A stretch of 32,261 nucleotides of DNA, from positions 1 to 32,261 of the IMG/VR virus record IMGVR_UViG_3300035660_000052. One strand, 5' to 3'. Shown here one piece after another: positions 4,000 to 31,806 of this stretch (position 1 is its first letter; each line of letters starts with the position of its first letter). The notes under the pieces are model-generated. The model saw only the letters and a list, made by a program, of their open reading frames with translations. It was not told where the DNA came from and searched no databases. Position numbers and translations under genes: made by a program. This DNA is from a virus.

Positions 4000-4132
4000 G
4001 GAAGTTGGTTACTGTCCTGAATGCGGAACGCCCATAGAAAATTACGATTCTCACGAGGGCGGCTGGTGCCGGAAATGCAAGAGATGGTGGCCGCCTGACC
4101 TTGTTAAAGAGCGCATGGAGGAAAACGAGTGA
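3989..4132 (+). CDS. Zinc-ribbon microprotein, 47 aa
   Basis: TTG at 3989 follows ggaggaggttcaatc. Two knuckles, CPEC near residues 9-12 and CRKC near 27-30, flank a short loop, as in zinc-ribbon domains of transcription and RNA-processing proteins. Trp-Trp-Pro-Pro follows the second knuckle, a pattern echoed by the WW after the second knuckle of the gene at 5203. Its TGA overlaps the GTG of the polymerase gene, which implies co-translation. Confidence 0.65.
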   Translation: MSDKEVGYCPECGTPIENYDSHEGGWCRKCKRWWPPDLVKERMEENE

Positions 4133-4740
4133 ACGAGAAGCAGTCAACTCTTTTCCCGTCCCTTAAAGGGACATCGAATACATCGTACACGTCCAAGGCA
4201 TTGAATGTGCTGGGGGGTCTTGATCGTAGCGAAGTTGAGCCTTTGGCGGCTAAGGTTCTGCAGGTTCTTGAGCCGTTTTGTGATCGCGTCGAAGTCGCTG
4301 GAAGTTTCCGTAGGCTCAGAACAGTGATAAACGATTTGGATGTTGTGGTTCAGCCGAAGCCGTTGCCGTCCTGCTGGCTCAACATGGTCAAGGCTCTGCG
4401 AACAGAGTTTGTTGCTGTCACGGAGAAGCAGGGTGACAAGTTAGCTACTTTGTATCTGCCGGTTTTGAGCGTTCAGAAAGGACCGGGATATTTCCAAGTT
4501 GACCTGTACCGGGCGGAAGCGAGGACGTGGGGGATCCTCCTGCTCGTGCGAACCGGGAGCAAGGAGCACAACGTCAAACTCTGCAGCTTGGCTATCAAAA
4601 AGGGGTTTCACCTTTTGTACAGTATGGGTTTGGTGCAGACCGTTGGCGGCAAGATCGTCGCGGGAAGGACTGAAGAAGAAGTCTTCCAGGCTCTAGGGCT
4701 TGCCTATATCGAGCCCAAGGACCGTGAGGTTAGCGCATGA
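4129..4740 (+). CDS. Minimal family X DNA polymerase-like nucleotidyltransferase
   Basis: GTG at 4129 overlaps the upstream stop. The 203-residue product carries the family X palm and thumb signatures: GS at residues 58-59 followed by RR, the catalytic DLD pair (D69, D71), the third acidic residue in FQVDLY (D125), the TGSKEHN motif at 142-148 that contacts substrate in Pol beta relatives, and a C-terminal EEEVFQALGLAYIEP matching the family's end. The usual N-terminal 8-kDa lyase/HhH domain and any PHP domain are absent, so it is much shorter than typical archaeal PolX. All three metal ligands are intact, which suggests activity in gap filling, end processing or nucleotidyl transfer. It is the only polymerase seen, so host enzymes probably replicate the genome. 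Confidence 0.85.
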   Translation: MNEKQSTLFPSLKGTSNTSYTSKALNVLGGLDRSEVEPLAAKVLQVLEPFCDRVEVAGSFRRLRTVINDLDVVVQPKPLPSCWLNMVKALRTEFVAVTEKQGDKLATLYLPVLSVQKGPGYFQVDLYRAEARTWGILLLVRTGSKEHNVKLCSLAIKKGFHLLYSMGLVQTVGGKIVAGRTEEEVFQALGLAYIEPKDREVSA

Positions 4741-10153: not shown

Positions 10154-10197
10154 CCGCTAATAACACCTTTTTGCTTTGGGCTCTATCTTACATTTCA

Positions 10198-11595
10198 ATG
10201 GCTAGATCGTCTGGTTCTGCCGTTCAAAGGCGAAAAAAGGCACGTGCCGACACGACAGATGATACTTATGGCATTCGCGGAGCTGGTCCAAATAGTGCCC
10301 TAGCGGATTTTGGAGGAACGATTGATCTTCAGGACCTGCTCTTTGCGATCAAACGCGAGCCTATTGCGAAGCGTCTTGTTTTCGACGTTGCGCATGATGT
10401 TTTCGACAAGTGGTTTAAGGTCGAGGACGTCAGCGAGAAACCGGATCCCAAGTTTGACCAGGTAGTGCAGAAGGCTCTTGCAGACTTGAACGCGAAGAGC
10501 GTTTTCAGCCAGATGGCAGCGTTTGAGCGTGGCTTCGGGTGGGCTATCATTGCCATGACTTTCGTTGATTATGCCGAAGACGCGAGCAAGCCGGTCAAGT
10601 CGCCGAAGGGCATTGAAGAGCTTTTCGCGTACGCCGGAGATCTGCATTTCACCGTTCAAAGCAGCGACGAGGATAAGGATAGAAAGAGCAGCAGATACGG
10701 CCTTCCGGTCCGCTACACTATGAATGAGAAAGGGGCAAGCCAGCGGAAGATTCACTATACTCGCGTGATCCACTTTGCGACTAGACTTTTGGACCATCTT
10801 TACAAGGGCGAAAGCGTTCTCGGTTGTTTGTATGATGACGTGACGGTTAGCCGTAATGTACGTTGGGGCCTCGGGCAGACAATATACAGGATTGGCGGCG
10901 GTTTTCCCGACATCACATATAAAGGTGCGACAAAAAAGGAGCTCGATGACTTCGAAAATAGTCAGCAATTGAAGAATCTTAACGCTCGAAGCTACATGCT
11001 TCACAGTGATAGGGTTACTGTGGACTTCAAGGGTGCTGCTGGCAAGGCATTGAATCCAGAGCCCTACAACAACATTATAGTCGAAAGTGAAAGCATTGGC
11101 TCGGGTGTGCCCGCTCCGATGCTTCGCGGGGCTCAGGCCGGAGCCATTTCTGGAAGCGAGACGAACCAGCTCGACTATGGCAAGATCGTGAGCGACGCCC
11201 AAGGGCGTTACGAGCCTGGTGTTCGTCAGCTCATTGATCTACTTATCGAATGTGGACAAATCCAGACGAACGTCAAGGAGTACCGTTTTGTCTGGAACAG
11301 CGCCTTGGAACTTACTGAGACTCAGAAGGCTGCCATTGAGTTACAGTTGGCTCAGGCGCGGGATCTCAAAACCGGATGGAAGACACTTGACGAGATTCGC
11401 GCTGAAGAGCACTTGAAGCCTTTGCCGGATGGTGCGGGTGCGGTTGTTTTAGGCGTTAAGAAGGCTGAGAGTCAGCCGTTCGGTCAGAGCCCTGGTAGTG
11501 TTTCGGCTTTTGGAGATGATGCGGGGAGAATTTCGCGTTTTCTTTCATGGTTACGTGGAGGAAGAAAAGTTGACAAGAACGATCAGGTTAAGTAA
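10198..11595 (+). CDS. Portal protein (DUF1073-like)
   Basis: ATG at 10198 is preferred; a TTG at 10171 would add nine residues. The 465-residue product has the layout of a portal protein: a basic N-terminal arm, helical domains (DVAHDVFDKWFKV), the conserved region IHYTRVIHFATRLLDHLYKG with ESVLGCLYDDV, and a later stem/wing part (ESIGSGVPAPMLRGAQAGAI, SGSETNQLDYGKIVSDAQGR). This resembles the DUF1073 portal family. It forms the ring at the capsid vertex through which DNA passes. The protease gene begins inside its 3' end, so the two are coupled. It opens the late operon. Confidence 0.82.
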   Translation: MARSSGSAVQRRKKARADTTDDTYGIRGAGPNSALADFGGTIDLQDLLFAIKREPIAKRLVFDVAHDVFDKWFKVEDVSEKPDPKFDQVVQKALADLNAKSVFSQMAAFERGFGWAIIAMTFVDYAEDASKPVKSPKGIEELFAYAGDLHFTVQSSDEDKDRKSSRYGLPVRYTMNEKGASQRKIHYTRVIHFATRLLDHLYKGESVLGCLYDDVTVSRNVRWGLGQTIYRIGGGFPDITYKGATKKELDDFENSQQLKNLNARSYMLHSDRVTVDFKGAAGKALNPEPYNNIIVESESIGSGVPAPMLRGAQAGAISGSETNQLDYGKIVSDAQGRYEPGVRQLIDLLIECGQIQTNVKEYRFVWNSALELTETQKAAIELQLAQARDLKTGWKTLDEIRAEEHLKPLPDGAGAVVLGVKKAESQPFGQSPGSVSAFGDDAGRISRFLSWLRGGRKVDKNDQVK

Positions 11596-12640
11596 AGCCG
11601 AGTTTGATACAACCAAGAAGATTCAGGAAACGGAAGACGAACTTATCGTTCCCGCGATCTTAACGAGAGAGGGTATCTTGCCCTTCGGCGACGGAAAGGG
11701 GTATAGACCCGCTGCGGAGTTGAAGGATGCGGCTTGGACTCTTGAAGGCGCTTGGGTAGTTGCGTTGAGCCACGTTCCGGACGTGTTTGTGACCAATCGT
11801 CGCGACATACGGGGAAGGGTTCAGAACCCGCGATTCTGTAACCAGATAAACGCCATTCTTGGAGATATCCATTTCATCAAGTCCAAGTGCGATGCACCGC
11901 TTCTAGATCGCCTGCGAAAAGGCGACCTGAAAGATGTTAGCCCTGCATACTTCGCTGACGACATTTTCACGCCCGGCAAGTTCGGAGACGAGCCCTATGA
12001 CTTTGTGCAAAAGGAATTTATGTTTGGTCATGTGGCTGCCGGAGTGCCTGAAGGGCGCTGTCCGAGTCCCTTCTGTGGAATGAGCGTTGACAGTCTCTTC
12101 GCGAAGCATGCTGATCCTGAAGTGACTGAGAATTATGTGCGGATTCGGGTTAGAGATCCAGACTTGTTTGTGGATGGCAGTTTCCGAACGATTGTTTTGA
12201 GTGCTGACCAGGGTATTCATGCGATCATTGGCAAGTTGAAAAGCGATCCACAGGGCTCGACTGTTGTTCAAAATTACATGTTTGAACTTGCGAAGGATTG
12301 GACGATGGAAAAGGCTCAGGCCTGGGTCAAGGAGCATAAGGATTCTGTTGAAGCTATGAACCTCGAAGAAATCAAGACAAAGATCAGGGACTTGGAGGGC
12401 CAACGACGGGCAATCATGGAAAGGCTGTATCCCAAAACCCAGTTGACGGAGGAAGACCAGCGGAAACTTGGAGAGGAATTAACGGTCTTGGATGCTGAGA
12501 TGAAGGCATTCACCGAGTTTCTGACTGAAAAGCTGGGCGAGGCCTCAGAGAATCCAGCCGGAGCTCAAACCGATTCCACGGAATCGCTTGATCCTGCTAC
12601 GGTGCTTGCGCGTAGCCGCGAGCTTCTCAAATCACGGTAA
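11570..12640 (+). CDS. Capsid maturation protease (DUF2213-like) with C-terminal scaffold-like helix
   Basis: TTG at 11570 has the SD gtggaggaag directly upstream; longer frames reach into the portal gene without an SD. The N-terminal 180 residues follow the DUF2213 pattern: an early DELIVPAILTREGIL, the WVVALSHVPD segment with a His, LRKGDLKDVSPAYF with a Ser, and FGHVAAGVPEGRCPSP near the domain end. DUF2213 proteins act as head maturation proteases. The C-terminal half (about residues 250-356) is charged helix (LEEIKTKIRDLEGQRRAIME) and may act as scaffold. It lies between portal and capsid genes as expected. Confidence 0.75.
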   Translation: MTRTIRLSKAEFDTTKKIQETEDELIVPAILTREGILPFGDGKGYRPAAELKDAAWTLEGAWVVALSHVPDVFVTNRRDIRGRVQNPRFCNQINAILGDIHFIKSKCDAPLLDRLRKGDLKDVSPAYFADDIFTPGKFGDEPYDFVQKEFMFGHVAAGVPEGRCPSPFCGMSVDSLFAKHADPEVTENYVRIRVRDPDLFVDGSFRTIVLSADQGIHAIIGKLKSDPQGSTVVQNYMFELAKDWTMEKAQAWVKEHKDSVEAMNLEEIKTKIRDLEGQRRAIMERLYPKTQLTEEDQRKLGEELTVLDAEMKAFTEFLTEKLGEASENPAGAQTDSTESLDPATVLARSRELLKSR

Positions 12641-13695: not shown

Positions 13696-14598
13696 ATGCA
13701 ATCATTAAGAAGAGTTGGAATGGACACTGGCAGGCTAACGAATGAAGAGATCATCTACATTGATGACCGTGTTGTCGAGGCTGTCGTTGCAGCGTCAATT
13801 TCTCGCAAGATATTCCCCGTTTTCACGCTGCCAAACGCGGGCATAATGACCGTTCGAGGGTACAAGCGTACTCCCATGTCAGCTGCAACTATCAGCCTTT
13901 ACGGCCAGGGCGGCTCGAAGGATCGCTCTGAAAAAGCCAGTTTCGACGTAACAGTGCCAGTCATAGAGAAAGAGTTTGACATCAAATGGAGAGAAATCGA
14001 AGCAAGCAGAGGCAACGGGGTGCCTATTGATACTCAGGAGGCAGAGGAAGCGGCGAGAAGAGTCGCGGCGGACGAAGACAAACTCCTCCTATCAGGCGAA
14101 TACACCGGGTATAGGGCTATGGGCGTTGAAGGCCTAGCCACTGCCACAGGGCGAAACACGAAAGCGAGCGCCGGCGCTTGGCCAGCGAACAGCTTAACCG
14201 ATCTGAGTGCTGCAATAGGCGAACTCGAAGCGGATGGACATACTGGTCCTTATGCCGTAATACTGCGCAGCTCTTGGGCTGCGAAATTGCGTGCTCTCGT
14301 TGCCAGCACTGCGACAAAGTGGATAGACGTCATACAAGGCGGCAAACCATTGTTCACTGCGGGTCTAGGCGGGGATGGCATATTCGTAAGCGACAGTCTC
14401 TACAGTTCTGGAGGATTGACAACCATCGCGGTGGTCATAGAGCCTTCACAGCAAAACTTCGAACTTGTAATAGGCGAGGACGTAAACACGAAAAAGCAGG
14501 CGGACGTGCGAGGAAACTTGGAATGCGTCACCAGAGAAGTCGTAGCGCCCAGGATCAAGAGACCAACTTGCATCTGCGAGATAACGGGACTCACGTAG
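13696..14598 (+). CDS. Major capsid protein, HK97 fold, encapsulin-like
   Basis: ATG at 13696. The 300-residue protein resembles the encapsulin-type branch of HK97-fold shells: an N-terminal arm with LTNEEIIYIDDRVVEAVVAA, the E-loop region (ATISLYGQGGSKDRSEKASF), a strand DVTVPVIEKEFDIKWREIEA leading to the spine helix (AEEAARRVAADEDKLLLSGE), then an A-domain (LSAAIGELEADGHTGPYAVI) and a C-terminal strand. There is no N-terminal delta domain, so scaffolding comes from separate proteins. It builds the icosahedral head. Phage-like neighbours (portal, protease, terminase, tail) rule out a free-standing encapsulin. Confidence 0.85.
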   Translation: MQSLRRVGMDTGRLTNEEIIYIDDRVVEAVVAASISRKIFPVFTLPNAGIMTVRGYKRTPMSAATISLYGQGGSKDRSEKASFDVTVPVIEKEFDIKWREIEASRGNGVPIDTQEAEEAARRVAADEDKLLLSGEYTGYRAMGVEGLATATGRNTKASAGAWPANSLTDLSAAIGELEADGHTGPYAVILRSSWAAKLRALVASTATKWIDVIQGGKPLFTAGLGGDGIFVSDSLYSSGGLTTIAVVIEPSQQNFELVIGEDVNTKKQADVRGNLECVTREVVAPRIKRPTCICEITGLT

Positions 14599-14933: not shown

Positions 14934-16018
14934 GAGTCCTTGTCGGCATTCCAAGCCTCAACGATGTTGATCGATTTCTAGGCTACCGAAGGGATGTTCT
15001 TAGCTGCGTTGAAATGGCTTTGGTCGGCCTTGACTATGAGGTTTTTGTTTCGCCTTCCCAGGACAAGCCAGGTATCGAAGGCATTGGTAACGCTCAGAAT
15101 ATACTCGTAGAACGTGCGCTAGTAGGTAAATTTGATTACCTCTGGATTGTTCAAGCGGATGTTTGTGTCCCGGGAGATTCCTTTGAGATTCTTTCAGGGT
15201 TGGGCGTCGACGTAGCTCAAGGCGTCGTTCCACGTCACGATGATCGAAACGCATTCATCTGTGGATTCATGGACGCAGAAAAAAAGGTTTGGTACTTACC
15301 CAGGAACGCGGTTGAAGGGCAGATCCTGTCAGGCTGGGTTTTTGCGGGGATGAGTTGCACACTTATCAAGCGTCGGGTTCTGGAAGCTGGGATTAAGTTC
15401 CGATATGTCCGTGGTATCGGGGAAGATATCCTTTTCATGTTTGACGTTCAGAGATCCGGTTTTGTTGCGAAGGTTGACGGTCGGGTGATCTGTGGCCATC
15501 TGCCAGAGTGGCCTTTAGGCTCTGTGTTAGGGGTGGCCACCCCTACTTATGGCTTACTTGATGTTGGTTGTGGGCATCGTCCAACTGGCGACGTAAACGT
15601 CGATTTGTTTCCAGAGGCCTCAGGTCATAGGTGCGTAGATCAAAGGGTGAACGATGATGTCGCGCTGCACGTGCACGAGATCCCGAATTTTGTTAAGGCT
15701 GATGCGTGCAGTCTGCCCTTTCGGAATGGCGCGTTCAAGAGCAGTTATACCTGGCACTTGATCGAGCATCTGCCGGATCCGGAAATGTTCCTGCGTGAGT
15801 TGATGCGCGTTTCCGTTGAGAAAGTTGAAGTTAGGTGCCCAAATGGAGAGCATGTTTCCTGCAAGGGCGAAACGAAACCTCTCCACTTGCACGATTTCAG
15901 TCTTGAGTGGTTCCGAGGAAAATTGGCCAATTTCACGGAATGGGACTTTGCGGTCCGCTGGGACTACAGCCAGAGCGAGCCCTGGGAGATAGTTGTGGAA
16001 GGTGTGAGGGTTGGCTGA
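14930..16018 (+). CDS. Glycosyltransferase-methyltransferase fusion
   Basis: The first ATG is at 15014, but the frame upstream encodes an obvious first strand of a GT-A glycosyltransferase (RVLVGIPSLN), so translation probably starts at the AUA at 14930, overlapping the preceding stop (ATAA). No ATG, GTG or TTG lies between it and the in-frame TGA further upstream. Residues 1-205 are a GT-A/GT2-like domain: YLWIVQADVCVPG with the acidic metal site, GWVFAGMSCTLI, and GIGEDILFMFDVQRSGF with a late His (ICGHL). Residues about 210-340 are a class I SAM methyltransferase: LLDVGCGHRP (motif I), VNVDLFPEA, ADACSLPFRNGAFKSSYTWH, IEHLPDPEMFLREL. It would transfer and methylate a sugar, perhaps on virion proteins or host surface glycans; it sits between capsid and tail genes. 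A -1 shift from the upstream Lys-rich gene is an alternative route. Confidence 0.78.
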   Translation: MRVLVGIPSLNDVDRFLGYRRDVLSCVEMALVGLDYEVFVSPSQDKPGIEGIGNAQNILVERALVGKFDYLWIVQADVCVPGDSFEILSGLGVDVAQGVVPRHDDRNAFICGFMDAEKKVWYLPRNAVEGQILSGWVFAGMSCTLIKRRVLEAGIKFRYVRGIGEDILFMFDVQRSGFVAKVDGRVICGHLPEWPLGSVLGVATPTYGLLDVGCGHRPTGDVNVDLFPEASGHRCVDQRVNDDVALHVHEIPNFVKADACSLPFRNGAFKSSYTWHLIEHLPDPEMFLRELMRVSVEKVEVRCPNGEHVSCKGETKPLHLHDFSLEWFRGKLANFTEWDFAVRWDYSQSEPWEIVVEGVRVG

Positions 16019-17769: not shown

Positions 17770-18147
17770 GTGGTTGCTGTAACGCCTAGCGAGGTCCGCG
17801 AGCGCATTAATGTTTCTGCAGCCGAAGCACCGGACGACGTTGTTAATAGGTTCATCACGGCTGCCGGGGTGACCGTTGAAACTGAAACTGGCGAGTCGGT
17901 CGATCCCTTAAACTGCAGCAAGGCTGAAGCTGAGGCAATCCGCAATCTTGCCGCCATCTATTGCGCTTGCAGAATCACCGGGGGCTCCGCCCAAGGCCTG
18001 AGCTTCCGAGTTGGCGATCTTGCTGTAAACGAATCCAGCAGCTCGAGTTCTGGCCTCAGTGGCGGCAACCTCCAATTTCTCCTTGACCAAGCCCTCAAAA
18101 TCATCGAGAACCTGAAAGGGTCACAGTTCAGGGCGGTGAATGCCTAG
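17770..18147 (+). CDS. Head-tail connector (adaptor) protein
   Basis: GTG at 17770 follows the upstream TGA directly. The 125-residue product has the helix pattern of gp6/gp15-type adaptors that bind under the portal: VTPSEVRERINVSAAEAPDD, VVNRFITAAGVTVETETG, then KAEAEAIRNLAAIYCACRIT, and a C-terminal helix (FLLDQALKIIENLKG). A Ser-rich loop separates the last helix. Position after capsid genes and before the neck protein supports the assignment. Confidence 0.65.
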   Translation: MVAVTPSEVRERINVSAAEAPDDVVNRFITAAGVTVETETGESVDPLNCSKAEAEAIRNLAAIYCACRITGGSAQGLSFRVGDLAVNESSSSSSGLSGGNLQFLLDQALKIIENLKGSQFRAVNA

Positions 18148-19770
18148 ATGGGGCTCGTTCCCGACGCATACTATCAGTACGTGATGCACTATGCGCCTTG
18201 GTTCTACGTGATTACCACAGCCATGACCGCTGACCCGCCAGCAGGCCAGAAAAACGTGACCGTCGCGAATGGCGCCTTGTTCAGCGCGAACATGCCCGTC
18301 GAGATCAAGGACTCCGCACATGCGGAATGGAACGAGGTTGATAGTGTTCTGGGCAATGTTGTGACCATGAAAACTAACTTGGCGTACACGTATTATGTCG
18401 CCAAAGGCGGGACCGTTGATCATGGGGATAAAGCCTATGGGAAAGGGGCTTTTCCGGCTGCCTTCGCCATCGAATTTCTGACTGAAGCCTATTCTGCATC
18501 TCAATTCGTTGCTCTTCAAGCGACCATTTTGGCGAAGATTGTGGAGCTCGCTGATTGGCTCTTGACTCAACAGTGTTTAGACGTTGCGAAGTATGCTTAT
18601 GGCGGTTTCTTCAGTGCTGATGGGGGCTCGGAGTGCTGGAGCATCGATGGTGGCCGCTGCATTCCTGCGCTCTTGAAGGCGTATGCGCTCACGAATGACG
18701 TCGATTACTTGAACGCTTCGAAGCTGGCAGGCTATACCTACCTGTACACGATGCAGCAGCAACCCGCGATCTTGGGAATTCACGACCGCTACTATGGCGG
18801 CTTCGCGAACAAGGTGAACCTCGCGCAAGCTTGGGATACGGTAATGTCGATTGAAAATCTCTACTGCTTGATTGGGCTCAAAATGCTGAATGACACCTAC
18901 GACACGGCTAATGCTGCAAGATACACGGCCATGATGCTTGATGCGGCTACCTTTCTGCGCGTCGGTTTCGAGCAACTGTACTTATACTATCAGCCTCCGC
19001 CCTCAGGATCTGGCGTTTGGTATCGCGTAGGCCTCGCTGATACTGAAATCTACGATGATCCGATGTCCTTCGCGCTTCTGGGGCTCTACTACTACGAGGC
19101 TTGGAGCCTATCTTGCCAGCGAGTTTACAATTTCGTTCAAGCCATCAGAGCCAGCGGACAATATCCCGCTTATTGGCCTGAAATCTGTTGGCCGGGGTAC
19201 ATCGATGTCGTTACTCGCTTTCCGGCATGCGCGTACTATGACGCGATCACTAGCGGTATCCTCTGGAAGATCAGGGCCGAGCGGGATCCTCCGAGCCTGA
19301 AGCTCGCGTTTGACGTCATAAACAAGTACAGTGACGAGTTTCTGTACTGGGGGCCCGTTTTCACCGACTATAGCCCGATCACGCCACAGAAAGCGATGGC
19401 AAACGTAACCTGGCTTGCCCGCATGTTTCTGAACTATTCCGAGCCTTTGACTAGATTCACGCGCATTCTGAGCAGCAAGGGCGAGGCTGTGCTCTTGTAT
19501 CCGGTTCGCCAAGCTGTTGAGACGGTTTCTTATGGCGAGCCCTTGGACGTTTTAGCGGTCGTTTCGCCGGTCAGAGCTGAAGAGGTTCTCTTAGAGGCTG
19601 GATATCTCCTAAACGACTATCTGGCTTTCTACACGTTTGTGCCGGTGCGGGTGCATGACAAGATCAGACGTCAAGGTGAGGACTACGAACTGGAGAAGCC
19701 GACGCCCTTCACGTATGAAAATCAGCGGATCTACTTCAAAACCGTAGCCAAGAGGTTGATCGCCACTTGA
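18148..19770 (+). CDS. Neck protein fused to an alpha/alpha-toroid glycosidase-like domain
   Basis: ATG at 18148; 540 residues. Residues about 20-95 are a beta domain (KNVTVANGALFSANMPVEIK). Residues about 105-425 are repeated helix pairs with aromatic and acidic loops (GGFFSADGGSECWSIDGGRC, YLNASKLAGYTYLYTMQQQP, AWDTVMSIENLYCLIGLKML, ARYTAMMLDAATFLRVGFEQ), as in (alpha/alpha)6 toroids of glycoside hydrolases, polysaccharide lyases and epimerases. Residues about 430-540 resemble head-closure proteins: a strand-rich start (RILSSKGEAVLLYPVRQAVE), VSYGEPLDVLAVV, then FVPVRVHDKIRRQGEDYELE. This is far longer than ordinary neck proteins of about 110 residues. Catalytic residues cannot be named from sequence alone. 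It follows the connector gene as a neck gene would. Confidence 0.65.
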   Translation: MGLVPDAYYQYVMHYAPWFYVITTAMTADPPAGQKNVTVANGALFSANMPVEIKDSAHAEWNEVDSVLGNVVTMKTNLAYTYYVAKGGTVDHGDKAYGKGAFPAAFAIEFLTEAYSASQFVALQATILAKIVELADWLLTQQCLDVAKYAYGGFFSADGGSECWSIDGGRCIPALLKAYALTNDVDYLNASKLAGYTYLYTMQQQPAILGIHDRYYGGFANKVNLAQAWDTVMSIENLYCLIGLKMLNDTYDTANAARYTAMMLDAATFLRVGFEQLYLYYQPPPSGSGVWYRVGLADTEIYDDPMSFALLGLYYYEAWSLSCQRVYNFVQAIRASGQYPAYWPEICWPGYIDVVTRFPACAYYDAITSGILWKIRAERDPPSLKLAFDVINKYSDEFLYWGPVFTDYSPITPQKAMANVTWLARMFLNYSEPLTRFTRILSSKGEAVLLYPVRQAVETVSYGEPLDVLAVVSPVRAEEVLLEAGYLLNDYLAFYTFVPVRVHDKIRRQGEDYELEKPTPFTYENQRIYFKTVAKRLIAT

Positions 19771-20756
19771 GCGAACTTGAAGATGCTGTTGATACTCTTA
19801 TCCGTTTGATTAGTAGCCGAATCCGAGTTACTAAGGACAACGGTTCGTTAGCAAGTTTGCTTGTTTGCGAGGGAAACTATGATCGCGAGATCCTAAAACA
19901 ATATGATGGTCAGATCACGTTAAGTACGCTCGATGGTACAGATGAATCAATTAGCCAAGATAGTCGGTTGCGACGTGAGATCGCGCTTGTCAAGTGTAGC
20001 ACTTTCGCTGTCGACAAGACGGCTCCGGGCTCTGACGCCGGAAAGGTCATGCGGAACAAGATGGCCGCCCAGATTAAAGCCATCATTCGCGAAAACAGAA
20101 ACATCCCTTATCAGGTAACCTATAACTTTAGCGGTCTTGGATATCCTTCGGGAGATCCGCACAAAGCTTTCTCATGTGCGGCAGCCACGGAACTCGCGCC
20201 CTCGAGCACGACCTGGGTTGAGCTCAGCAACTTGGAGTATCAAAAAATCTGGTCGAGTGACGACGTTAGGCACACCAAGACGACGACCGTGAGCGGGCAG
20301 TATAGCCTTATGCTCTTCAAGTTCAAACTCGGACCAAGAGAGCAGTGCGTCAAGAAAATCGTGCTCAGTTTTGAGGGTTATGGAACCGCTCCCGGAGGAA
20401 ATGGCGTTACAAGCAAGGTTTGGAATCACGTCGCTGCCGCATGGCAGCAACCGCAGAGCGGAACAGGTGCCGGAGATGAAACCTTAACCATCACGATCTC
20501 TTCTACCTGGACAGACTTCATCGATTCAAGCGGCTATGTGTATCTTCTGGCGAAGACCACGAATCCGAGCGATGGCGCCACGCCTGCGATTCTATATTGC
20601 GATTTTGTCCAGTGCACCGTCCAGGTGGCTGGAATAACCCATTGCGACATCAAGACCTTCAGAAATGTGCTTGTCACCGATTTAAAACCCTACTTGCATA
20701 GCACCGAGTTTGGGCTTAGGACTTGGTTCATCGTCACAGTCTCAGGAGTTTTCTAG
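19767..20756 (+). CDS. Tail terminator-like protein with inserted beta-sandwich domain
   Basis: TTG at 19767 overlaps the preceding stop. Residues 1-135 look like a tail-completion protein (ELEDAVDTLIRLISSRIRVT; SRLRREIALVKCSTFAVDKT; AGKVMRNKMAAQIKAIIREN). Residues about 140-290 are an inserted strand-rich domain (TTTVSGQYSLMLFKFKLGPR, CVKKIVLSFEGYG, SKVWNHVAAAWQQPQSGTG) like DNRLRE or carbohydrate-binding jelly rolls. Residues 295-329 return to the first fold (CDIKTFRNVLVTDLKPYL). It would cap the tail tube at the neck. Position between neck protein and tail tube supports this; the exact fold is inferred. Confidence 0.6.
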   Translation: MSELEDAVDTLIRLISSRIRVTKDNGSLASLLVCEGNYDREILKQYDGQITLSTLDGTDESISQDSRLRREIALVKCSTFAVDKTAPGSDAGKVMRNKMAAQIKAIIRENRNIPYQVTYNFSGLGYPSGDPHKAFSCAAATELAPSSTTWVELSNLEYQKIWSSDDVRHTKTTTVSGQYSLMLFKFKLGPREQCVKKIVLSFEGYGTAPGGNGVTSKVWNHVAAAWQQPQSGTGAGDETLTITISSTWTDFIDSSGYVYLLAKTTNPSDGATPAILYCDFVQCTVQVAGITHCDIKTFRNVLVTDLKPYLHSTEFGLRTWFIVTVSGVF

Positions 20757-20774: not shown

Positions 20775-21635
20775 ATGGTTGAAACCTATGGAACGGATGA
20801 AGAGCGGTTCTACCACGTCGATGAAGGCGTGTTTGGAACCACGCCCACGAATCCGGCGATGCTCTCGGTGCCTTCTGATGTTATCGATCCGGGGTTAGAT
20901 CCCGGGTTGATTCAGCTTCGCGGTGCTGGAAGTTACGATCTTCAGGCGATAAAGAAGGGTCTTCGGCAGCCAAGGTTGAAGGTCGGCTACGTGTTGCCTT
21001 CTACTGGTCCGATTGCGTTGCTCCAGTGGGCGAAAACGGACTTGAACAAAAGCCTCAGTTGCCAGGTTCTGTACTGGAAGGGTTCATTTTCGAGTCCGAC
21101 CGACGTCCTTTCGTTGCTCTTCAAGGGCATGCGCATAAACAAGGCATCTCTGGCTTGCAGCATCGAGGACGTTATCAAGGCGACGCTGGAGCTCGAGGGG
21201 CAGGATCTCGAGACCGGCACGGCAAAGATCACCGGCGCCACGTACACAGACCATACTGGAGCCGTTAGCTTCAGCGAGACATACGTCAAGCAAGACACTA
21301 CCACGCTGGACACGGTAACGGATTGGAAGTTTGACATACTCAACAGCGTTAAGCGGGTGCCAGTCATTCGCTCGAGTAGTGGGCATCTTGCGAAGTACGT
21401 GCCCTTCGGCCACCGGGAGCTTTCAGGCGAGTTGAGTTTCGAGTTTGAGAGCAAGGCCGAGATGGATGCGTGCTTGGCTGACACGGAGTTTTCTCTCGAG
21501 TTCGGGCTCAGCGGCACATGCAAGGCAATATTCAGCGCCTGCAAATGGGGACAAGTCACCCATGCTAAATGGCTTGAAGACCTGATCTGCGCGAAGGCTC
21601 TGTTTGTGGCCAAGGGGCCTCTCTCAATCAGTTAG
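20775..21635 (+). CDS. Major tail tube protein
   Basis: ATG at 20775; 286 residues. The pattern suits a siphovirus tail tube: an N-terminal arm (ERFYHVDEGVFGTTPTNPAM), a beta barrel with symmetrical halves (RQPRLKVGYVLPSTGPIALL; IEDVIKATLELEGQDLETGT), the segment TDWKFDILNSVKRVPVIRSS, and a repeat of the barrel (HRELSGELSFEFESKAEMDA). It polymerises into hexameric rings. Placement after the terminator and before the chaperone and tape measure genes is canonical. Confidence 0.75.
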   Translation: MVETYGTDEERFYHVDEGVFGTTPTNPAMLSVPSDVIDPGLDPGLIQLRGAGSYDLQAIKKGLRQPRLKVGYVLPSTGPIALLQWAKTDLNKSLSCQVLYWKGSFSSPTDVLSLLFKGMRINKASLACSIEDVIKATLELEGQDLETGTAKITGATYTDHTGAVSFSETYVKQDTTTLDTVTDWKFDILNSVKRVPVIRSSSGHLAKYVPFGHRELSGELSFEFESKAEMDACLADTEFSLEFGLSGTCKAIFSACKWGQVTHAKWLEDLICAKALFVAKGPLSIS

Positions 21636-26079: not shown

Positions 26080-26532
26080 TTGGCGAAGGGTAGGCCGTGG
26101 ACTAAGGAGCAGGAACAGACACTCATACAGCTTATCCGGAAAGGGAAAGCCGTCGATGTAATCGCAAAGGTCTTGCATAAGACTGAGGAAGCGATTTACA
26201 TGAAGCTCAAGAGGCTCGGGTTGGAAGTAGTTGTTAGTGAAAAAAATCAACTAACAACTTCTTCTCGCTCTAAGACGCCTACCGAATTGCCGAGCATCGA
26301 GAACGTTCTCAAGCGGTTAAGTCGTGCCCTGAAAGATTTGGAAAAGCCGGGGATCGAGAAGAACGAAATCATTAGGCTCAGATGCTTCATTCAAGGCGTC
26401 AAGATCTACAAAGAGCTCTTCGGAGACTACGTGCAATATTCTGAGATAGAGGCTGAGCTCGTAGAGTTGAGGCGTGTTTATGAGGAACTACGAAAGAACG
26501 CCAAGGACAATGCACCCAAAAGAAATAAGTAA
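26080..26532 (+). CDS. Terminase small subunit-like protein
   Basis: TTG at 26080 directly after the preceding stop. Residues 1-45 form a SANT/HTH-like DNA-binding domain (RPWTKEQEQTLIQLIRKGKA; VDVIAKVLHKTEEAIYMKLK). A linker and a helical region follow (LPSIENVLKRLSRALKDLEK; IIRLRCFIQGVKIYKELFGD; EIEAELVELRRVYEELRKNA) suitable for oligomerisation. Position directly before the large terminase gene, which it overlaps, supports packaging-site recognition. The pac or cos site is not identified. Confidence 0.7.
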   Translation: MAKGRPWTKEQEQTLIQLIRKGKAVDVIAKVLHKTEEAIYMKLKRLGLEVVVSEKNQLTTSSRSKTPTELPSIENVLKRLSRALKDLEKPGIEKNEIIRLRCFIQGVKIYKELFGDYVQYSEIEAELVELRRVYEELRKNAKDNAPKRNK

Positions 26533-27928
26533 TGAGCGGGCTAGACTCAAGGCTCAAATCCAAGCCCTAAAGGAAAAACAGAACCGCCAAGTTGAGAAGC
26601 TGAAGACCAATCTTGTCGAATTCTTTCGCCAAGTCCTAGGCTTTGAGCCTACCGCATATGAGAAGGAATTCATCAGCCTCTTTGAAAAGAACCAGTTCCT
26701 GGCTGCCCGCTGGTGCCGGCAGAGCGGCAAAAGCTGGACCGTGAGCGCCTTGCTCTTGAATTATGCTCTTACGCATCCTGACAGCTACATTGGCGTTGTC
26801 GGTCCCTCTTGGCGTACGACGAAACTAAACATTCGAAGAATAAGCTATTTCCTGCGCAGAATTCCACCGGACCGATATCTCAAGCCAGGGCGAACAGTCT
26901 TACGCTTCACGAACGGCAGCGTTATTGAGGCTTTTCCGAACAATCCAGAAACGATCCGTGGGCCTACGCTTGACGCTATATGGTGGGATGAAGTTGGATT
27001 CACACCGCAAGACGCTGACTTGTACGATGCTGTTTTATTCACTTTGGGCACTACTGACGGCAAGCTCGTTTGTACGTCAACGCCCTGGAATAGCGACAGC
27101 CTTTTCTGGAAGATGTGCAACCACAAGGACTTCACCGATTTTGCGCGGCATCATGTGACGTGGCAGCAGGCTCAAGAACCCAATGGGCCTCTGAAAAAGG
27201 GCATTCTGGACAAGATTAGGAAGCAGTTTGGTGAAGATCCTGCTCGGTGGCGTCGTGAGATGGAGGCTGAATGGGCTGAAGACGAGAACGTGTGGCTGCC
27301 CCAGAGTTTGATCGTTGCATGCGTCGGAACCGCGAAAAACTGTGGCGAGGACCTGCAACCCTGGAATCCAGAGCAGGGAAATGAAGGCGAACTATTCGCT
27401 GGCCTAGATCTTGCTCAGGTGAGGGACTATTGTGTTTTCAGCGTGATTCAGCGCTTGAATGATAGGCTCTTTCTGCGACATTTGAAGATCTTCAGTCAAC
27501 CCACGAAGTACGCGAACGTTCTGGGCTACGTGAAGATGCTGCAGGATCGCTGGGGTGGCTTCGCCAAAATGCGCGTCGACTTCACCAAGGAAGGCCCCAG
27601 CATAATCAGCGACATGGAAGACGCAGGCATCCAGAACGCTGAAGGCGTAAACTTTAGCTTACCGCGGAAGAGCGAGATGGCTAATCTCTTGAAGCAGCGA
27701 ATGGGAGATCAGAGGCTCTTCTATCCGCTTCTCACATGGGAGAAGCCATATCGTAGCGACGTCTGCACAGAGCTCAACGTTGAGAGGTACGAACTGCGCA
27801 AGGATGGAGCCATCGCGCTATCCCATCCGAACGGAACGCACGACGATGTGTTCTGGAGTTTGGCGCTGGCCGTTTTTTCAACGGTCGAGATGAAAACCGT
27901 GGATCTCGAGGCGATCCGGTTTGGCTAA
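26510..27928 (+). CDS. Terminase large subunit
   Basis: ATG at 26510 gives 472 residues; an ATG at 26480 with gaggcg upstream is an alternative adding 10. ATPase domain: Walker A RQSGKS at 70-75, Walker B IWWDE with D160-E161, coupling motif CTSTPW near 188-193. Nuclease domain, RNase H-like: D300 in AGLDLAQ, D357 in MRVDFTKE, and D445-D446 in THDDVFW. All key residues are present. It powers DNA packaging through the portal and cuts the concatemer. Its length is ordinary for the family. Confidence 0.92.
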   Translation: MHPKEISNERARLKAQIQALKEKQNRQVEKLKTNLVEFFRQVLGFEPTAYEKEFISLFEKNQFLAARWCRQSGKSWTVSALLLNYALTHPDSYIGVVGPSWRTTKLNIRRISYFLRRIPPDRYLKPGRTVLRFTNGSVIEAFPNNPETIRGPTLDAIWWDEVGFTPQDADLYDAVLFTLGTTDGKLVCTSTPWNSDSLFWKMCNHKDFTDFARHHVTWQQAQEPNGPLKKGILDKIRKQFGEDPARWRREMEAEWAEDENVWLPQSLIVACVGTAKNCGEDLQPWNPEQGNEGELFAGLDLAQVRDYCVFSVIQRLNDRLFLRHLKIFSQPTKYANVLGYVKMLQDRWGGFAKMRVDFTKEGPSIISDMEDAGIQNAEGVNFSLPRKSEMANLLKQRMGDQRLFYPLLTWEKPYRSDVCTELNVERYELRKDGAIALSHPNGTHDDVFWSLALAVFSTVEMKTVDLEAIRFG

Positions 27929-27986: not shown

Positions 27987-29468
27987 ATGCGTAGGCGCCG
28001 TGAGTATTTCCGTATCCACCATTTTAGGCGTGTCTACGATAGAGTCCAGGGCAAGTTTCGGTTTCAGATCAGCTATTCAACGTCTGCAGAGCTTACGCCT
28101 AGAACCATCGCAGTCGCCGAAGCCTTCGGCCTAGGAGCAGATGAAGAGCGAACCTTTGAAGTTCTGGACACTGAGCTGAAGATAGGACCCACAGACGTGG
28201 TTTACATCACCGGTGACAGTGGCAGCGGGAAAAGCGTCCTACTCAACGCTCTTGAAAAGGACATTAGACAGGGTATGCGGGAAACCTGCATCAACATCTC
28301 AGACGTCAGGCTTCACCATAATATGCCGTTGATAGAGACGGTCGGGGAAACCGTTGAGGAAGGCTTAGAGCTCCTTAGTAGGGTTGGCTTGAATGATGCC
28401 TTTCTGTTTCTTCGCACCTACCGGCAACTGAGTGATGGACAGAGATATCGGTATCGCATCGCGAAAGCTATCGAGAGCAAGGCTCAATTCTGGATCGCGG
28501 ACGAGTTTGCAGCCACTCTTGACAGGGACACCGCAAGAATCGTGGCGTTTAATCTTCAGAAGGTTGCCCGGGCTCTCGGAAAAGCGGTGATAGTTGCGAC
28601 GACCCACAAGGATCTGCTGCAGGATCTCCGGCCTAGCGTTCACATCCATAAGCGCTTTGGCAAAGAGATAACGATAAACTACTACTCAAACGAGCCCGCA
28701 GCGGAATGTACTCTTGTCCCCGAGATGCAGGTCAGAGAAGGAACAAGGGCTGATTGGCTCGGTCTTGCCGGATTCCATTACCGGTCGCACAACCTGGGTG
28801 CTGTGCGCAAGATCTTCGCGTTGAAGCGCGGAGAGGAGTTGTGCGGGGTGATCGTGTATGCTTATCCGCCTCCGACTTCGCACGGTCGGGCTATAGTCCT
28901 GCCGAAGATGGCCATCCGCGACCTGAACAAGCAACTTTGCAGCATCTCGCGAGTAGTCATTCACCCGAAGTATCGAACAATCGGCTTAGGAGCCTTACTT
29001 ATTAGGCAAACGCTGCCGCTGGCTGGAACGCCAAACGTCGAAATGAGCGCGGTCATGGCCAAATACAATCCCTTCGGGGAAAAGGCAGGCATGCGCAGGA
29101 TCGTACTCCAGCAGCCCTCAAGGGACGCCATCCGCGTCTCAGAAGCTCTCAACGAACTGGGGTTTAGTCCTCAGCTCCTGGGCAGCCAAAAGTACGTGAT
29201 TACCAAGCTCGCAAGCCTGAACCCAGACCAGATGCGCGGTCTAAGAGAAGCATTCTGCAGAAATATGCACCCGCGATACATGAAAGAATTTAAGACGGGC
29301 AAGATCTTCGGAAGTAAGAAGGTCGTTGAAGCTGCGATTCAGAAGGCGGAACTGCCGAAGCTGGCGCAGCTCATCAAGATCACGGGGCTCTTGCTCCAGA
29401 CGAAAGCCTACCTGTTCTGGAGTGAAACAGAAAAAGGGGGAAGCGGCTTAAGCGCCGTTCCCGACTAG
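27987..29468 (+). CDS. ABC-type ATPase fused to GNAT acetyltransferase (COG2401-like)
   Basis: ATG at 27987; 493 residues. ABC domain: Walker A GDSGSGKS at 76-83, signature LSDGQ at 148-152, Walker B FWIADEF with E173, and H-loop His at 207 (ATTH). Residues about 235-390 look like a GNAT acetyltransferase (ADWLGLAGFHYRSH; ISRVVIHPKYRTIGLGALLI with the R-x-x-G-x-G/A acetyl-CoA motif). The C-terminus is helical. This ATPase-acetyltransferase architecture is known from archaea (COG2401); its substrate is not known to me. It is the last gene of the virion operon, next to terminase, so a role in packaging, RNA or DNA modification, or counter-defence is possible. Confidence 0.8.
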   Translation: MRRRREYFRIHHFRRVYDRVQGKFRFQISYSTSAELTPRTIAVAEAFGLGADEERTFEVLDTELKIGPTDVVYITGDSGSGKSVLLNALEKDIRQGMRETCINISDVRLHHNMPLIETVGETVEEGLELLSRVGLNDAFLFLRTYRQLSDGQRYRYRIAKAIESKAQFWIADEFAATLDRDTARIVAFNLQKVARALGKAVIVATTHKDLLQDLRPSVHIHKRFGKEITINYYSNEPAAECTLVPEMQVREGTRADWLGLAGFHYRSHNLGAVRKIFALKRGEELCGVIVYAYPPPTSHGRAIVLPKMAIRDLNKQLCSISRVVIHPKYRTIGLGALLIRQTLPLAGTPNVEMSAVMAKYNPFGEKAGMRRIVLQQPSRDAIRVSEALNELGFSPQLLGSQKYVITKLASLNPDQMRGLREAFCRNMHPRYMKEFKTGKIFGSKKVVEAAIQKAELPKLAQLIKITGLLLQTKAYLFWSETEKGGSGLSAVPD

Positions 29469-30396: not shown

Positions 30397-30482
30397 AAAA
30401 CCGGCTCAGGGCATTACTTAATTTTGTGGGCTTCCCGAACCTCTTCAGCAAAAACTACACCTGGAGCTGCGGCCAGTTATGA
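30393..30482 (+). CDS. Possible microprotein, 29 aa
   Basis: ATG at 30393 overlaps the preceding TGA, and the frame ends against the 3' end of the recombinase gene on the other strand. The product (KNRLRALLNFVGFPNLFSKN) has no recognised motif. Support comes only from the stop/start overlap. Confidence 0.3.
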   Translation: MKNRLRALLNFVGFPNLFSKNYTWSCGQL

Positions 30483-31766
30483 ATGTTGAAGTAGATATTT
30501 GTCGTCATTTAAGGACTGTACGAGTTTCCATGAATGGTTGTTAAGTTTCTCCATGAGTTCCGTTTCTCCATTTGCTACGTAATATTTTCCGTTTCCGTCA
30601 GTTCCAGTTTCGCTTTCTTCTGTCTCTCCGAAGCGCCTAAACTCTTTTATTCCCTCATCCACGCCAGACCTAGCTAATACTTCTTGGAGCCTCTTCAGCT
30701 TGTCATCTTCGTATCCTTGCAGCCGCGCAAAATCCAGAAGGGCTTTCTTCCTGAACTGGTCCTCTTCAATCGGTCTACGCGCACTCTCAAGCCTCAAAAC
30801 TTCAGTAACTTCCGCTTCTATGAGCAATTCCCTAATCTTCTCCGTGTCACCCATGTATGCACCATTAAACCTCTGCACATGGCCAGTCAACAAATCGATG
30901 ATGTCATCGCTCACTCGGTTCCGTAGCTGCGTGCTGAACCACATCCGGCAACAATGATAACTTAAACGTCTGCCAGTCTTCGCTCTAACACCGGCTCTCT
31001 TGCATAAATCTTTGAAAATATCATTACACAAAGAAGGTTCAATATGGTTACTCTTGTATCCGCTGAAAAGCCAGCCTTCACTCTTGCCCAAGCTCTTGAT
31101 GTACGTGGATAAGATCTCTTGTACTTCAGGAGTAAGAAGTAGAAGAATGTCCTCATTCGTTTTCGGCCTTAGCAACTCCACAAACTCCAGCGTCTTCCCG
31201 TCTAGTATGCCTTCAAACTTCTCAATCTTGAGAACTGAAACAGTGCTTTCATCTTGACCCATAAGACCCAGAGACAGTACTGCTCTATCCCGTAGCTGTG
31301 CAACCTTGATCAGAGCGTTAATCTCAGGAGCCAATAGTTGATGCTTCTTCTTTTCTGGTTTCGGGTTTCTCATCCGAGCATCTTTCCTTATGAACTTCCG
31401 CAAGCTGATGGGCATGTTATGGAAGTTGAAGAAAGACTGAATAGCCGTGGCAGCAGTGCGGGCGGTAGTCTGAGCTGGAGACTTGTCCTTATACTTTCCT
31501 GTCCACCCTCCGGCACGACCTTTCACTGAACCCATGCGCTTAATCTTGACGGCCCCAGAAAGCAGGTATCTGTAAAACTGGAACACCTTCTCAGGATACA
31601 CATCAGAAGTCTCAGGCTCACGCCGCAGCTCACGATGCTCGGCCAGCATTTGCGCGCCACTCTTTCCTATGTACTGTTCAAACGCTCTGAAATTGGAAAG
31701 ATAGCAATTCCTAGTATTCTCTCCGCATGGTTCCAGCCATTTTTCAACTGGATCTGATTTATTCAT
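30477..31766 (-). CDS. Tyrosine recombinase (integrase) lacking the usual first catalytic Arg
   Basis: ATG at 31766 is near the expected transcription start; a GTG at 31775 is possible. About 429 residues. The N-terminal part (residues 1-130) is a SAM-like core-binding domain. The catalytic part shows a beta-hairpin Lys (LRPKTNED), box II HCCR (LSYHCCRMWFSTQL), a later His (LLTGHV) and the nucleophile Tyr in FNGAYMGD. Where box I Arg is normally found (TGLRxSE) the sequence is MGQDEST, with no Arg. About 100 further residues follow the Tyr, longer than usual, and include an acidic stretch. It would integrate or resolve the circular genome. The missing Arg may mean an altered enzyme. Confidence 0.75.
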   Translation of the reverse strand: MNKSDPVEKWLEPCGENTRNCYLSNFRAFEQYIGKSGAQMLAEHRELRREPETSDVYPEKVFQFYRYLLSGAVKIKRMGSVKGRAGGWTGKYKDKSPAQTTARTAATAIQSFFNFHNMPISLRKFIRKDARMRNPKPEKKKHQLLAPEINALIKVAQLRDRAVLSLGLMGQDESTVSVLKIEKFEGILDGKTLEFVELLRPKTNEDILLLLTPEVQEILSTYIKSLGKSEGWLFSGYKSNHIEPSLCNDIFKDLCKRAGVRAKTGRRLSYHCCRMWFSTQLRNRVSDDIIDLLTGHVQRFNGAYMGDTEKIRELLIEAEVTEVLRLESARRPIEEDQFRKKALLDFARLQGYEDDKLKRLQEVLARSGVDEGIKEFRRFGETEESETGTDGNGKYYVANGETELMEKLNNHSWKLVQSLNDDKYLLQHS

Positions 31767-31768
31767 GC

Positions 31769-31806
31769 ATATCACAATATATGATATAGTAGCGACGGCT
31801 TATATA
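31769..31806 (-). promoter_or_regulatory. Recombinase promoter with inverted-repeat operator
   Basis: On the minus strand a TATA box (tatataag, 31806-31799) lies about 35 bp before the ATG at 31766. Between them atatca (31769-31774) and tgatat (31782-31787) form an inverted repeat over the expected start site, a likely operator. Bases 31807-31885 hold nothing else I can support. Confidence 0.5.

Follow-up and report, generated by a model that had tools for sequence, protein, structure and literature searches.

Does the neck of a tailed virus carry an enzyme-like domain for sugars, and what would such a domain do there? This question was raised by one gene in a 32,261-nt stretch of viral DNA (positions 1 to 32,261 of IMG/VR record IMGVR_UViG_3300035660_000052, a head-tailed virus), hereafter called the window. 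An earlier note, based on the letters of the window alone, had read a 540-aa open reading frame as a neck protein fused behind a toroid of carbohydrate-active type, and the frame proved to be as described there: it encodes one conserved protein with more than 250 complete relatives. The virion enzymes so far known to act on the sugars of a host are located at the tail tip or on fibres, and the neck would be a third site if this reading is true; a neck-borne enzyme would also be present in a fixed copy number of six and would not be variable like fibres.

Gene order around the fusion gene

The published order of Type 1 neck genes is Ad1-Hc1-x-Tc1 (PMC4362835), and the fusion loci follow the order Ad1 - Hc1 - Tc1 - tail tube (Table 1). 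The terminator-like gene of the window starts within the end of the fusion gene (4-base overlap). A terminator or tail tube gene was found 3' of the fusion gene in all 259 loci with enough downstream sequence, and a recognisable connector 5' of it in 173 of 214, the loci in both counts being partly redundant; the gene thus occupies the neck position that had been proposed for it.

Several other genes of the window are worth recording. The product of the terminator-like gene has 329 aa, compared with 153 aa in a provirus of genome G068 (locus L261), and the difference includes a beta-rich insert of ~170 residues (about 115-285), possibly a second neck decoration. The gene at 15014-16018, 5' of the neck genes, encodes a methyltransferase domain (Pfam E 5e-7), and the N-terminal half weakly matches a glycosyltransferase; the gene was matched in only 25 loci. 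Behind the terminase lies an ABC-type ATPase-like frame (27987-29468; ABC_tran E 5e-11) that also weakly matches an acetyltransferase, and a 203-aa frame at 4129-4740 carries the thumb and palm of a DNA polymerase beta (PF14791 E 5e-17).

Table 1. Features of the window and of related loci; coordinates refer to the window unless a locus is named.
Feature	Coordinates	Strand	Basis or remark
Portal	10171-11595		
Protease	11498-12640		
HK97-fold major capsid protein	13696..14598	+	Linocin_M18 E 9e-25; phrog_264 major head protein
Head-tail connector/adaptor (gp6/gp15-like, Ad1)	17770..18147	+	Directly 5' of fusion gene; Phage_connect_1 E 0.013; phrog_442 head-tail adaptor E 0.008
Toroid-Hc1 fusion protein, 540 aa	18148..19770	+	ATG 18148, stop 19770; single ORF
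First helix (6-15) region, residues 1-22	18148..18213	+	Model; kept in relatives that lack the beta-module
Optional mobile beta-module, residues 24-93	18217..18426	+	Cleft-side loop, between helix 6-15 and helix 101-115
(alpha/alpha)6 toroid, six-hairpin glycosidase type, residues 96-430	18433..19437	+	Model, Foldseek
D167	18646..18648	+	N-terminus of inner helix 2; 99% of 140 sequences
E236	18853..18855	+	N-terminus of inner helix 3; 99% of 140 sequences
Y302-D303-D304	19051..19059	+	N-terminus of inner helix 4; D303, D304 in 140/140
Y363-Y364-D365	19234..19242	+	Just before inner helix 5; 140/140
Head-closure (Hc1/stopper) domain, residues 431-540	19438..19767	+	Viral Foldseek; phrog_939; stand-alone homologue L261:6126-6503
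Tail terminator/completion (Tc1-like), beta-rich insert	19767..20756	+	N-terminal part aligns with 153-aa L261 homologue, E 2e-8
Tail tube protein	20775..21635	+	Phage_tube_2 E 1e-13
Terminase	26474-27928		
Integrase-like gene	30477-31775	minus	
Beta-helix tail-spike-like ORFs with beta-module	L356:3078-4385, L358:2685-4211, L359:2575-4101		Just 5' of Hc1-like gene

Occurrence, hosts and selection

Scans of IMG/VR gave hundreds of loci with relatives, and the 254 complete ones fall into 139 clusters at 90% identity; those in the 140-sequence alignment are 46-87% identical to the window copy. In the first three scans, the two domains were never seen apart in an intact copy: searches with the C-terminal domain alone gave copies that all had the toroid as well, and searches with the toroid alone gave copies that all had the C-terminal domain. 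In INPHARED phages, tblastn gave no match, whether the query was the whole fusion protein or only its C-terminus, the capsid or tail tube protein, or a divergent family member. Two named genomes with the fusion gene, PFL10 and A05DMB-2, are of Candidatus Bathyarchaeota, and among 257 Bathyarchaeia genomes the C-terminal domain was present in 35 and the toroid in 41 (E <= 0.001). Several of these copies are located on chromosome-size contigs and are hence integrated; the hosts are Bathyarchaeia, which are abundant sediment archaea whose viruses and surface sugars are little known. The genome of A05DMB-2 (G002) has six copies of the head-closure domain, each on separate contigs, and should therefore hold several related proviruses. 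When proviruses were tallied on the basis of the tail tube gene (53 matches with E < 1e-50, leaving out 5 that were cut by a contig end or fragmentary), the fusion was found within about 3 kb in 45 of 48 testable loci; the remaining three belong to G068, G096:C21 and G129, the last being a remnant.

The fusion ORF is under purifying selection, and for the toroid omega, where it could be calculated, is about 0.04-0.12, dS being saturated. Distances of the toroid correlate with those of the Hc1 domain at r 0.67, compared with r 0.42 for the tail tube, and the mean pairwise distance is 0.40 for the toroid and 0.47 for Hc1, the toroid being the more conserved; it is constrained and co-inherited with the neck domain. 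We regard the fusion as genuine, of old origin and widely distributed.

Predicted structure of the toroid

The fusion protein was modelled with AlphaFold2 on the A5 alignment of 140 sequences, which gave a pLDDT of 95.5 and a pTM of 0.93; a single-sequence run gave a pLDDT of 33.5 and was not used. The model contains twelve helices, six inner and six outer, which follow one another as in an (alpha/alpha)6 toroid and are mostly at pLDDT >90. Eleven are found at 101-115/118-141, 165-182/185-208, 235-251/253-275, 303-317/321-331, 367-379/381-393 and 417-429, and the twelfth, at 6-15, probably completes the ring as an outer helix. A Foldseek search of the PDB with the toroid gave 78 matches at E <= 0.001, and nearly all among the matches listed were (alpha/alpha)6 glycosidases or epimerases, such as AGE-type epimerases and GH76, GH88 and GH8-like enzymes (E 1e-6 to 1e-4). 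Matches of lower rank were D-glucuronyl C5-epimerase and also complement C5, which has the toroid fold without an enzyme function. The toroid-like helix pairs suspected from the sequence are thus a predicted twelve-helix toroid, related in fold to (alpha/alpha)6 enzymes.

In Pfam, C5-epim_C (PF06662) weakly matched 20 of 28 and 11 of 12 fusion-family members. For the window copy the score was 18.6 bits against a gathering cut-off of 23.3, and only profile positions 28-67 of 188 were covered; we did not assign this copy to the family, because the match is below the cut-off and restricted to a short stretch of the profile. A TAL effector repeat, the sole PDB match when the single protein was searched with phmmer, is a repeat artefact.

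The layout given in the earlier note, namely toroid, beta domain and neck domain, was correct as to its parts and needs two corrections. The beta domain is an insertion (residues 20-93 in the model) that follows helix 1 of the toroid, and many relatives lack it. The toroid extends to about residue 430, and the neck domain occupies about residues 431-540. This beta-module, which has a weak likeness to Pfam K1-lyase_Rider, is both optional and mobile. Of the 254 complete copies, about 110 have only 440-479 aa, with a clean absence of residues ~24-95 in the aligned short copies (L072 and L083). The module is also present in tail-hub-like ORFs (L004, L063 and L107), and a second provirus lineage has it in beta-helix ORFs (L356, L358 and L359). 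One relative (L045:5844-7979) has an extra 150-aa insertion within the toroid, at about residue 224-231, which resembles phage proteins of phrog_5986 (E 9e-11). In (alpha/alpha)6 enzymes the cleft lies on the side of the loops leading from outer to inner helices, and both insertions enter loops of this kind, which suggests that the cleft-side face is free in the virion.

Conserved residues and possible catalysis

Conservation of acidic residues in homologues, which had been thought informative for an enzyme-like toroid, was indeed found. D303, D304 and D365 are invariant in all 140 aligned sequences, together with W291, W348, Y351, Y363 and Y364, and D167 and E236 are kept in 99%. The invariant Asp, Tyr and Trp residues are located at the predicted cleft mouth, at or before the N-termini of inner helices. 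In a class-matched test for a cleft-side excess of conserved polar and aromatic residues, 15 were observed and 12.6 expected (p = 0.20), and in a second class-matched comparison 11 and 7.6 (p = 0.05); we did not take the clustering of invariant polar residues at the cleft mouth as significant.

Enzymes of the AGE family (N-acylglucosamine/cellobiose 2-epimerases) have conserved catalytic histidines. Because none of the His positions is conserved at 90% or more among the 140 sequences, AGE-type epimerase chemistry, as generally understood, is excluded and this assignment was rejected. GH76 enzymes have an adjacent pair of catalytic Asp residues, D124-D125 in BcGH76, and a D125N variant of GH76 described as 'inactive' is among the PDB Foldseek matches of the toroid. 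The residues of the invariant pair D303-D304 are neighbours in the sequence too, and these two are candidate catalytic acids. A family-specific catalytic residue set was not identified in the toroid. With moderate confidence we regard the toroid as an active glycan enzyme. Since the hosts are Bathyarchaeia, host envelope or S-layer glycans are a more reasonable substrate class than pseudomurein, to which no finding of this analysis points.

Head-closure domain and variants in the same gene slot

Residues 446-536 form a predicted beta-barrel of the small stopper fold. A Foldseek search of a viral library with the C-terminal domain (prob 1.00, E 2e-5 to 1e-3) gave proteins named Head-tail joining protein, Closure knob, head-to-tail connector complex protein and SPP1 head-tail adaptor. 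Among profiles, phrog_939 'head protein' matched 6 of 20 C-terminal domains of relatives and, down to 1e-7, the stand-alone homologue of L261, and phrog_161 Hc1 gave only E 0.2 among relatives; the window copy had no Hc1 or head profile match, and the best PDB profile match was a head completion protein at E 0.38. The fold matches to closure and joining proteins bear out the head-closure protein that had been read at the C-terminus. With the toroid present in the model, neither of the two outcomes named as refuting in the earlier note was obtained, and as a statement about structure the idea of a neck that includes an enzyme-like domain is upheld.

A homologous domain was also found outside viral genes. 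The host gene for topoisomerase VI B in genome G056 (L262:4827-6911; Topo-VIb_trans E 5e-61), directly followed by the topoisomerase VI A gene, encodes at its C-terminal end a homologue of the head-closure domain of the viruses (A2 E 4e-12). This arrangement occurs in G056 only, among the 257 Bathyarchaeia genomes, and the VI-B frames of other Bathyarchaeia matched only upstream of the head-closure-like domain.

The slot of the fusion gene can be occupied in other ways. The G068 provirus has a stand-alone Hc1 of 125 aa between connector and terminator, and the tail tube tree places this provirus inside the fusion-bearing clade (node 100/100). Because of this nesting, its state is most likely a secondary loss of the toroid, observed for one gene in one genome, and the toroid is therefore not strictly essential for the neck; this toroid-less relative offers a natural direct comparison. 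Upstream of its connector is a gene with a Glycos_transf_2 match (L261:4222-5238, E 6e-11). The G096:C21 locus has a 461-aa ORF between connector-like and tail tube genes (L354:8156-9538), with no Pfam, PHROG or PDB match, and no head-closure gene was detectable there; a terminator-like C-terminus of this ORF (BLAST E 0.07) was rejected as unsupported. In the second provirus lineage (L356, L358 and L359), whose tail tubes are distant (E about 1e-18), the order is connector (seen in L356), right-handed beta-helix ORF (Beta_helix E 1e-26; phrog_7458 tail spike E 3e-13), stand-alone Hc1-like gene and terminator. The Hc1-like genes of this lineage were assigned by position and length, because their A6 match is weak (E 0.08 or weaker). 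Of the circumstantial evidence for a role in glycan processing or binding, the occurrence of two different carbohydrate-type folds in one slot is the strongest.

Proposed role and alternative explanations

We favour, with fair but not strong confidence, the explanation that the protein is the Hc1 of a long-tailed Bathyarchaeia virus with an N-terminal toroid, and that six toroids form an outer collar acting on host glycans. In phage SPP1, gp16 is a hexamer under the 12-mer adaptor and narrows the channel to about 12 A; the gp16 N-terminus is packed between the barrel and loops of gp15 (PMC9701221). By analogy, six copies of the fusion protein would bind beneath the connector ring and close the head. 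We infer that the toroid is outside the channel, because its 330 residues are too large for the inside; there the toroids would form a collar of six, with the cleft facing away from the ring. They most likely act on host-envelope glycans, whether by hydrolysis, lyase or epimerase chemistry, and this action would help the particle to hold to, or pass, the surface sugar layer. A broader proposal, which we make tentatively, is that in tailed viruses of Bathyarchaeia the slot between connector and tail terminator is a loading place for glycan-active modules, which are either toroids joined to the stopper or separate beta-helix spikes beside it, with the mobile beta-module in common, and that a neck ring of six enzymes processes host-surface glycans.

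A collar need not be catalytic. The toroids could bind glycans or be purely structural, holding the particle to sugars or stabilising the neck, and the carbohydrate-binding modules on neck proteins of lactococcal 936 phages (PMC6669499) are a precedent for this. The same explanation is consistent with the non-significant clustering of conserved residues on the cleft side, with the presence of the fold in non-enzymes and with the dispensability of a toroid that has been lost in L261. Catalysis, however, is favoured by the acidic residues, D303-D304 and D365 being invariant and D167 and E236 being placed at inner-helix N-termini, down to 46% identity; the toroid also diverges more slowly than the neck domain, unlike typical adhesins, which track host variation. 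We consider a non-catalytic collar rather unlikely on balance, while giving it more weight than the explanations that follow.

It is improbable that the toroid works in the producing cell or at release, where it would trim or epimerise virion glycans or free particles from envelope glycans. The argument for this starts from the glycosyltransferase-like genes 5' of the connector in the window (15014-16018, weak) and in L261, from which it would follow that virion or host sugars are handled. A stopper, however, joins the virion only after DNA packaging, and a fixed link to it would be of no benefit to a soluble enzyme inside the cell; moreover, the glycosyltransferase is not consistently beside the fusion gene (25 loci). 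We see hardly any room for an artefact, whether a chance or assembly fusion or an Hc1 made separately from an internal start, which would leave the neck without toroids. Apart from an ATG at residue 426 of the window copy, only the oddity of the arrangement speaks for it, and this Met is not conserved, so that separate synthesis of Hc1 was rejected. An assembly artefact is refuted by the recurrence of the fusion across the 139 clusters, many metagenomes and many host genomes, and the toroid follows Hc1 in distance more closely than it follows the tail tube.

Comparison with known systems

Hardly any known virus has a sugar-type enzyme at its neck, whereas the domains of the fusion protein are present in 35-41 of 257 Bathyarchaeia genomes. 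The Bathyarchaeia virus papers covered here mention no epimerase-like or glycosidase-like neck domain, which does not prove novelty, as most subscription papers and preprints were outside this scope. In overall fold and in the weak C5-epim_C match, the toroid is like GH76, GH88, GH8, AGE epimerases and D-glucuronyl C5-epimerase; it differs from these (alpha/alpha)6 enzymes by an identity of about 10%, by the absence of the AGE histidines and by its fusion to a virion protein.

Among structures at or near the neck, Dpo7 of Staphylococcus phage phiIPLA7 is similar in being a depolymerase named after a neck appendage, but it is a separate pre-neck appendage protein outside the closure protein (PMC5380687). 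Lactococcal 936 and P335 phages have carbohydrate-related domains at the neck, in their neck passage structure, and in 936 phages carbohydrate-binding modules are carried by separate neck passage proteins (PMC6669499); these are separate collar or whisker fibres with binding modules or a beta-helix, whereas the toroid is fused to the head-closure protein itself. SPP1 gp16, the Hc1 of a Type 1 neck, is like the C-terminus of the fusion protein in beta-barrel fold, length and Ad1-Tc1 position, but the Hc1 members matched here are about 100-150 aa long without an enzyme-like domain, and the fusion protein has ~430 extra N-terminal residues. The only virion-associated lysin described at the phage neck, according to a 2017 review, is P22 gp4 (PMC5380687), which likewise has an enzyme-like function, a lysozyme activity, within a neck protein. 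The phage of P22 gp4 is short-tailed, and there the protein serves as adaptor and has peptidoglycan as its substrate, whereas the fusion protein is the predicted stopper of a long-tailed archaeal virus and carries a toroid of the glycosidase/epimerase type.
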